Shown piece after piece: positions 54,416-56,547 of a DNA stretch of 64,000 bases. The position numbers were made by a program, and so were the translations under genes. The stretch spans positions 1-64,000 of the forward strand of contig JANQVH010000012.1 of the NCBI GenBank assembly GCA_030730425.1, in the 5' to 3' direction. The stretch comes from Candidatus Nanopelagicaceae bacterium. Lineage in GTDB: Bacteria; Actinomycetota; Actinomycetes; Nanopelagicales; Nanopelagicaceae. Positions within the stretch are counted from its first letter, which is position 1; each line of letters starts with the position of its first letter. Under the pieces are notes generated by a model that saw nothing but the letters and a program-made list of their open reading frames with translations, searched no databases and had not been told where the DNA came from.

Positions 54416-55855
54416 ATGCGCCGCGCCAAAATTGTCTGCACTATGGGCCCTGCTGTTGAGAGCGTTGAGAAAGTCTCTGAGCTAGTCAAAGCAGGAATGA
54501 ATGTGGCCAGACTTAACCTCTCTCATGGCGGATATGAAGAACATCAAAATCGCCTAGATCTAGTAAGAGCTGAAGCTGCCAGAGTTAAAAAGCCTGTAGC
54601 GATAATGGTTGATCTTCAGGGACCAAAGATTCGCCTTGGAAGATTTGAAAACGGTCCTCATGAGTTATTCCGTGGAGATTCTTTCACGATTACCACCGAT
54701 GATATTGCTGGCGACAAATCTCGCGTCTCAACCACCTATAAAGGCCTTACCGGTGATTGCAGAGCTGGAGATTTAATTCTAATCGATGATGGCAAAGTCA
54801 CGGTTCAAGTTATAGAGGTTAAGGGTAGCGATGTCATAACAAAAGTAATTGAGCCAGGATTTGTCTCTAATAACAAAGGAATAAATCTTCCAGGTGTTGC
54901 AGTCTCTGTTCCTGCCATGAGCGAGAAAGATATAGAGGACTTGCGTTGGGGACTTAAAGCAGGCGCTGACTTCATAGCCTTATCATTTGTAAGATCTGCA
55001 AAAGATATAGATGATGTTCATAAAATTATGGATGAAGTTGGCCATCGCATTCCAGTCATTGCCAAGATTGAAAAACCTCAGGCGGTAGATAACCTAGAGG
55101 AGATAGTCCTAGCCTTTGATGGAATTATGGTTGCTCGTGGCGATCTAGGCGTTGAGATGCCGATTGAAGATATTCCACTTGTACAGAAGCGGTGCATCAC
55201 CCTTGCTCGCGAGAATGCAAAGCCAGTAATCGTTGCAACCCAGATGCTTGATTCAATGATTAATAGCTCCAGGCCGACAAGGGCTGAAGCAACAGATTGC
55301 GCAAATGCAGTTCTTGATGGAGCTGATGCCTTGATGCTCTCAGGAGAGACTAGCGTTGGAGCATTTGCTATTGAAGCTGTTGCAACCATGGCTCGAATTA
55401 TTGAAAAAACTGAGCAAGAGGCGCTTCACTTGATTCCAGCTCTTCAACACAACCCTAAAACTAAAGGCGGGGCAATAACAAAGGCAGCAACAGAGGTTGG
55501 TCTAACAATTGGCGCCCAGGTTTTGTCAGCATTTACTAAGAGTGGAGATTCAGCAAGAAGAATGTCGAGACTTAGATCACCGATTCCAATATTGGCCCTC
55601 ACTCCAGATACCGCCACCTATAACCAGATGGCACTTACTTGGGGGGTTGAGCCACTTCTTACCCCTTTAGTTACCACCACTGATGAGATGGTTAAGCAGG
55701 TAGATACGATTTTGATTGAGAGTAAGAGAGTAGCTATTGGTGAGTTAATCATGATCGTTGCTGGTTCTCCGCCAGGAATTCCTGGCTCAACCAATGCGAT
55801 GCGCGTTCATAAGGTGGGAGATGCTGTTAGTGGCGTGGCTCCTGCCTATCGCTAG
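54416..55855 (+). CDS. pyk: Pyruvate kinase
   Basis: 479 residues. RRAKIVCTMGPAVES, NLSHGGYEEH, DLQGPKIRLG, IAKIEKPQAVDNLEEI (catalytic Lys and Glu), MVARGDLGVEMP and ATQMLDSMINSSRPTRAEATD give the full catalytic barrel; the C-terminal allosteric domain is present. Converts phosphoenolpyruvate and ADP to pyruvate and ATP. A tRNA gene begins 21 nt after its stop. Confidence 0.97.
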   Translation: MRRAKIVCTMGPAVESVEKVSELVKAGMNVARLNLSHGGYEEHQNRLDLVRAEAARVKKPVAIMVDLQGPKIRLGRFENGPHELFRGDSFTITTDDIAGDKSRVSTTYKGLTGDCRAGDLILIDDGKVTVQVIEVKGSDVITKVIEPGFVSNNKGINLPGVAVSVPAMSEKDIEDLRWGLKAGADFIALSFVRSAKDIDDVHKIMDEVGHRIPVIAKIEKPQAVDNLEEIVLAFDGIMVARGDLGVEMPIEDIPLVQKRCITLARENAKPVIVATQMLDSMINSSRPTRAEATDCANAVLDGADALMLSGETSVGAFAIEAVATMARIIEKTEQEALHLIPALQHNPKTKGGAITKAATEVGLTIGAQVLSAFTKSGDSARRMSRLRSPIPILALTPDTATYNQMALTWGVEPLLTPLVTTTDEMVKQVDTILIESKRVAIGELIMIVAGSPPGIPGSTNAMRVHKVGDAVSGVAPAYR

Positions 55856-55876: not shown

Positions 55877-55949
55877 GCCTCGGTACTCCAACGGTAGAGA
55901 GGGCGGTCTCAAACACCGCATAGTGTCGGTTCAAATCCGACTCGAGGCA
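55877..55949 (+). tRNA. tRNA with anticodon CAA (Leu by codon), class I shape
   Basis: A 73-nt cloverleaf. Acceptor GCCTCGG/TCGAGGC (7 bp, one G-U); anticodon stem GCGGT/ACCGC with loop CTCAAAC, anticodon CAA at 55910-55912; T arm GTCGG-TTCAAAT-CCGAC; discriminator A. The variable loop is only ATAGT, although tRNA-Leu normally has a long variable arm. The D stem is short (CTC/GAG, 3 bp). CCA is not encoded. TTTAAT (55863-55868) ends 8 nt upstream and may be its -10. The amino-acid identity is therefore uncertain. A degenerate or specialised tRNA is possible. Confidence 0.8.
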
Positions 55950-55950
55950 C

Positions 55951-56547
55951 GTGAGTACTAATATTAAATCTGGAGCGCATCGCATCCTAATTGCTGAGGA
56001 TGAAACTTTAATCCGTATGGATTTAGTTGAGATGCTAAGTGAATCTGGATATGAAGTAGTTGGCCAGGCAAGCAATGGCCAAGAGGCAATAGATCTTGCT
56101 AAAGAGTTAAAACCTGATTTAGCAATCCTTGATGTAAAGATGCCAATCCTTGATGGAATCTCTGCTGCTAGTCAGATAATTGATATCTCTCCAGTTCTAA
56201 TGCTCACCGCTTTTAGTCAGAGAGATTTGGTAGAGCGGGCAAGTGATGCTGGAGCGATGGCATATGTTGTTAAGCCATTTACAATTAATGATTTGATTCC
56301 AGCAATTGAGATCTCAATTAGCCGACATAGGCAGATGAAATCTTTAGCACTTGAGGTAAGTGATCTTCATGAAAGACTTGAGAGTAGAAAATTAATTGAC
56401 AGGGCTAAAGGAATTTTGATGAAGGCGCTAAACCTTTCAGAGCCTGAAGCATTCTCTTGGATTCAGCGGGCAGCGATGGATCGGCGAATTTCAATGAAAG
56501 AGGTGGCTAGGGCGGTAATTGACCCCTCGGCTGCTCCTAATAAGTAG
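55951..56547 (+). CDS. ANTAR-domain response regulator (PdtaR/AmiR-NasT type)
   Basis: 198 residues. Receiver domain RILIAEDETLIRMDL with phospho-acceptor Asp61 (LAILDVKMP), TAFS and VVKPF, then a coiled linker and an ANTAR RNA-binding domain (RAKGILMKALNLSEPEAFSWIQRAAM) near residues 130-180. ANTAR proteins bind paired hairpins in mRNA leaders and prevent termination or change translation. GTG 55951 is the only usable start before the receiver core, and it lies one base after the tRNA 3' end. No ribosome site exists outside the tRNA. The partner histidine kinase is not in the window. Confidence 0.94.
   Translation: MSTNIKSGAHRILIAEDETLIRMDLVEMLSESGYEVVGQASNGQEAIDLAKELKPDLAILDVKMPILDGISAASQIIDISPVLMLTAFSQRDLVERASDAGAMAYVVKPFTINDLIPAIEISISRHRQMKSLALEVSDLHERLESRKLIDRAKGILMKALNLSEPEAFSWIQRAAMDRRISMKEVARAVIDPSAAPNK

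Follow-up and report, generated by a model that had tools for sequence, protein, structure and literature searches.

The window, a stretch of 64,000 nucleotides of DNA from a Candidatus Nanopelagicaceae bacterium, carries a single tRNA gene of 73 nt at positions 55877-55949 of the forward strand, with the anticodon CAA and an intact cloverleaf. It was called as tRNA-Leu(CAA) by ARAGORN, at 55877-55950, and matched the Rfam family RF00005 over 55877-55949 with 54.5 bits, the gathering score being 29. The gene lies between those for pyruvate kinase and a response regulator, and the features of the locus are the following:

54416..55855, + strand: gene for pyruvate kinase (pyk), the upstream neighbour, kept in close relatives
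55877..55949, + strand: class I tRNA-Leu(CAA) gene, CCA not encoded (sequence, ARAGORN, Rfam)
55877..55883, + strand: acceptor stem, 5' strand GCCTCGG, pairing with 55942-55948 and including a G7-U66 wobble (sequence, covariation)
55886..55888, + strand: D stem, 5' strand CTC (positions 10-12), pairing with 55899-55901
55889..55898, + strand: D loop CAACGGTAGA, read as C13 A14 A15 C16 G18 G19 U20 A20a G20b A21, of the leucine type
55899..55901, + strand: D stem, 3' strand GAG (positions 23-25)
55903..55919, + strand: anticodon arm with the stem GCGGT/ACCGC and the loop CTCAAAC, the anticodon CAA being at 55910-55912
55920..55924, + strand: short variable loop ATAGT (positions 44-48), 5 nt
55925..55941, + strand: T arm GTCGG-TTCAAAT-CCGAC (sequence, covariation)
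55942..55948, + strand: acceptor stem, 3' strand TCGAGGC, with GAGG at 55944-55947 shortly before the pdtaR start
55949..55949, + strand: discriminator base A73
55951..56547, + strand: gene for a PdtaR-type response regulator with an ANTAR domain (pdtaR), the downstream neighbour

Positions 8 and 9 of the tRNA are U8 and A9. With a variable loop of 5 nt in an intact cloverleaf, the molecule belongs structurally to the class I tRNAs (loops of 4-5 nt) and not to class II, in which a tRNA-Leu has a variable arm of at least 10 nt. The initial annotation had pointed to a leucine anticodon combined with no more than ATAGT in the variable loop, which departs from what is normally expected of a bacterial tRNA-Leu, and the sequence, ARAGORN and Rfam all agree with it. 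It had also called the stems perfect, which is slightly generous: they are well kept, and the acceptor stem is fully paired once the G-U pair 7-66 is counted. The D stem of 3 bp that had been singled out is present as described but is not odd, since the long-armed tRNA-Leu(UAG) and tRNA-Leu(GAG) of the same genomes share this form of D arm, with a 3-bp stem and a loop ending in GGYAGA.

The absence of the arm expected for this isotype would fit a pseudogene in decay, or an ordinary tRNA-Leu whose variable arm was recently deleted. Both are contradicted by conservation at the locus, where homologues of 95-100 % identity are present in most of the window's family, usually in the same place, and by the recurrence of the same loop length in many families and in several phyla. 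Among 121 distinct short tRNAs for UUR codons, the stems were 96-100 % paired, compared with 58-81 % when the 3' partners were shuffled, a control in which relatedness remains; 17 of the 20 stem pairs had undergone changes on both sides. The broken stems and unselected pairing that mark a tRNA pseudogene were not seen. On the strength of conservation and covariation the pseudogene was rejected, as the initial annotation had anticipated, and the probability of decay or recent deletion is close to negligible.

Some positions do not vary at all. In 126 short UUR sequences C12-G23, C13, A14 and A15 are invariant, and positions 46-48 read AGU in 113 of them. U48 and A73 are invariant as well; both were part of the pattern with which the named loci were fetched, so that the constancy of G18 G19, Y20-A21, U48 and A73 in those loci is partly a result of selection by the pattern. 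U48 also holds among the class-survey matches listed, for which it had not been demanded, and A73 is found in every one of the CAA loci L001-L030, for which similarity was the sole criterion of retrieval. The anticodon loop and A37 are likewise kept in the short UUR family.

The window's own genome (54 contigs, 94.6 % complete) was inventoried for tRNAs by family searches, which yielded, besides the CAA tRNA, tRNA-Leu(UAA) in the short form and tRNA-Leu(UAG) in the long form. The whole set of tRNA-Leu genes could be seen in a complete relative, G024, which has only four leucine tRNAs: CAA and UAA, both short, and UAG and GAG, both long. In the sampled genomes of the window's family, a UUR pattern allowing any arm length and a pattern restricted to 5 nt gave equal counts (two, once three), with one exception, an evident chance match in genome G219. 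From these equal counts it follows that, as far as the patterns can see, this family has none but short tRNAs for UUA and UUG.

The meaning of these two codons was assessed with the gltB gene of the window (1505 aa; 14 UUG and 32 UUA codons), which was set against 21 copies from other actinobacterial genomes. The aligned positions were leucine in the relatives for 59 % of UUG and 67 % of UUA, against 52-65 % for the four CUN codons. The leucines of the relatives that match leucine codons of the window's gltB are mostly encoded by CUC and CUG, and the CUN tRNAs are long-armed where the full set could be seen, in the complete relative. Leucine is as frequent at UUG and UUA positions as it is at those of CUN, and UUR therefore means leucine. 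UUA can be read by the short UAA tRNA only, which must therefore carry leucine, and the CAA tRNA shares all the leucine determinants of this UAA tRNA. The CAA tRNA is not strictly the sole possible reader of UUG, because the UAA tRNA could wobble to this codon; it is a leucine isoacceptor in the sense that its anticodon reads a codon that means leucine here.

These results bear on the suggestion in the initial annotation that the tRNA might be charged with another amino acid at UUG, in which case UUG, or UUR as a whole, would be reassigned or ambiguous in the lineage. A class I shape with a leucine anticodon favours such a reading. So does overall resemblance: when the variable region is left aside, similarity to long-armed leucine tRNAs is about 0.60, a weak signal that some other isotypes equal approximately. 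The same identities, computed to look for descent from another isotype by remolding, give too faint a signal in either direction. Reassignment of the codon was rejected by the alignment of gltB codons with those of relatives; the leucine determinants, A73 and A15-U48 among them, are present, and members of the family occur across much of the phylum. That the tRNA receives another amino acid is thus very improbable.

According to a review, the leucine determinants in E. coli are A73, A15-U48, G18 G19 and A20a, A14 is a determinant for the mitochondrial tRNA-Leu(UUR), and a tRNA-Leu without its long arm is still charged by E. coli LeuRS (PMC9976931). The premise of the initial annotation that the long arm sets identity is weak for this last reason. 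All of these determinants are present in the window tRNA. A set consisting of A14, A15, G18 G19, YAG in the D loop, U48 and A73 was found in 126 of 129 short and in all three long tRNAs annotated as leucine, and in none of the sampled tRNAs annotated with other amino acids. One LeuRS gene, a complete open reading frame of 819 aa, exceeds the family cut-off in the genome; a second, unusual LeuRS was sought there and was not found. A single ordinary bacterial LeuRS would then charge the window tRNA, recognizing A73 together with the D loop and elbow (A14, A15-U48, G18 G19, A20a) and not the variable arm. SerRS depends on a long variable arm, and the absence of one would keep this enzyme away. 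The short CAA and UAA tRNAs would in this way serve the UUR half of the leucine codons and the long-armed tRNAs the CUN half. That LeuRS supplies the leucine is predicted from the single LeuRS gene and from the meaning of UUR. Taken together, the locus very probably (roughly 0.93) encodes a functional class I tRNA-Leu that reads UUG, is presumably charged by LeuRS and belongs to a family of class I tRNA-Leu(UUR) that is widespread and seems to have gone unremarked.

The 5-nt UUR pattern was matched in 157 of 197 genomes of the class, representing 67 of 82 genera, while a control with the reversed pattern gave one match. In many actinomycetes of this class survey a short UUR tRNA is paired with a long one; in others both are short. 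Which of the two anticodons, CAA or UAA, is borne by the short tRNA varies among actinomycete families, which suggests that short and long genes have been swapped repeatedly. With a stricter pattern that required U48 and A73, 46 of 197 genomes of a phylum-wide sample were matched, and many families had no match. A scan of the named GTDB collection with a pattern requiring G18 G19, Y20-A21, U48 and A73 returned at least 117 stretches. Actinomycetota hold most among the matches listed, with Mycobacterium, Nocardia, Gordonia, Corynebacterium, Bifidobacterium, Nocardioides, Streptomyces, Candidatus Planktophila and others. Both UUR tRNAs are short in Mycobacterium asiaticum, a Corynebacterium and Planktophila versatilis; in Streptomyces lincolnensis the CAA tRNA is short and the UAA tRNA is long. 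Elsewhere the short form is sporadic; well-formed short UUR tRNAs among the matches listed came from contigs assigned to Christensenellaceae, Planctomycetota, Rokubacteria, Gemmobacter, a Deltaproteobacterium and a tRNA array of Chloroflexaceae, although single outsider contigs could be misplaced, as these are mostly metagenome bins. The five outsiders among the matches listed that are not in an array also have a long UUR tRNA in the genome, usually with the anticodon CAA.

The Chloroflexaceae contig (L212) contains a dense array of about 30 tRNAs, among them both short UUR leucine tRNAs, and the array perhaps stems from a mobile element or phage. Short variable loops were also seen in tRNAs with CUN anticodons that are called leucine, in Microcoleus (L242), Acidobacteria (L255) and Dactylosporangium (L259); some of these sit among several tRNAs on one contig. 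In mycobacteria, a short loop in one tRNA-Leu(TAG) that belongs to a tRNA cluster has been noted as a departure from the expected form (PMC6582537).

The downstream neighbour lies close by: the start codon of pdtaR follows A73 after 1 nt (55949-55951). Most relatives that have the order pyk-tRNA-pdtaR share the string A73-C-ATG/GTG. This junction is present in most of the loci L001-L030, L151, L168, L174, L184 and L188. The GAGG within the 3' strand of the acceptor stem is too near the pdtaR start for an ideal ribosome-binding site, and a scan for promoters and terminators around the tRNA found none. Judging from the spacing between A73 and the start codon, a pdtaR mRNA with almost no leader would result if the transcript were cut after A73. 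The initial annotation had offered a regulatory tRNA-like RNA as one possibility; such an RNA would act on the adjacent pdtaR instead of decoding, a view to which the 1-nt spacing in many relatives and the preserved gene order among close relatives lend some weight. It is hard to reconcile with the complete relative, in which this is the sole CAA tRNA found, or with the other actinomycetes, in which the same tRNA is usually not beside pdtaR. The family is moreover kept over the class, with its anticodon loop and A37 intact and its stems covarying. A purely regulatory RNA is accordingly highly unlikely, while a secondary regulatory role of the tRNA, exerted through its processing, is possible.

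A wider proposal builds on the functional class I tRNA-Leu. Under it, class I tRNA-Leu(UUR) would be a second kind of bacterial leucine tRNA, ancient and of phylum scale. This kind would be recognizable by C12-G23, C13, A15-U48 and a variable loop in which AGU is the usual ending, would exist beside class II tRNAs for CUN and would share one LeuRS with them. In the window's lineage, 3' maturation would in addition release a nearly leaderless pdtaR mRNA and so tie tRNA processing to synthesis of the regulator. As a whole this proposal is tentative, and we regard it as rather more doubtful than probable.

The short form resembles the bacterial class II tRNA-Leu (E. coli, the UAG tRNA of the same genome and the GAG tRNA of the relative) in its 3-bp D stem, in A14 A15 .. 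G18 G19 Y20 A20a G20b A21 of the D loop, in U48 and A73 and in reading leucine codons. It differs at several points: the variable region is 5 nt long where class II has its arm, C12-G23 and C13 stand in place of G12-C23 and A/G13, and position 9 is A in most members where class II has G. The tRNA-Leu(UUR) of animal mitochondria likewise reads UUR without a long arm and has its identity set by A73 and A14 (PMC9976931); that tRNA is organellar and floppy, whereas the window tRNA is a regular bacterial cloverleaf that would be charged by a bacterial LeuRS. For M. tuberculosis, only Leu-2, -3 and -5 are given as long-loop tRNA-Leu, and the rest are implied, without comment, to be short (PMC11541572), which would place them in the same group. 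The tRNA-Leu(UAA) encoded by bldA of Streptomyces is likewise an actinomycete isoacceptor for UUR, but it is long-armed. In the open-access literature searched, no published description of a bacterial class I tRNA-Leu was found. The sequences themselves are not new, as they are in public genomes and are called tRNA-Leu by tRNA finders; the generalization on short UUR tRNA-Leu appears to be.

In conclusion, the window tRNA is a genuine, conserved class I variant of tRNA-Leu, common in actinomycetes, that by all indications inserts leucine, and the general statement in the literature that bacterial tRNA-Leu carries a long arm is contradicted here. Actinomycetes include major pathogens and antibiotic producers. 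If UUR tRNAs lack the arm across this group, models of LeuRS recognition would be affected, as would annotation pipelines in which absence of the arm counts as an isotype conflict, and the finding would bear on studies of LeuRS inhibitors and of mycobacterial toxins that target tRNAs. The natural pairs of long and short leucine tRNAs within one cell make the role of the arm directly testable.
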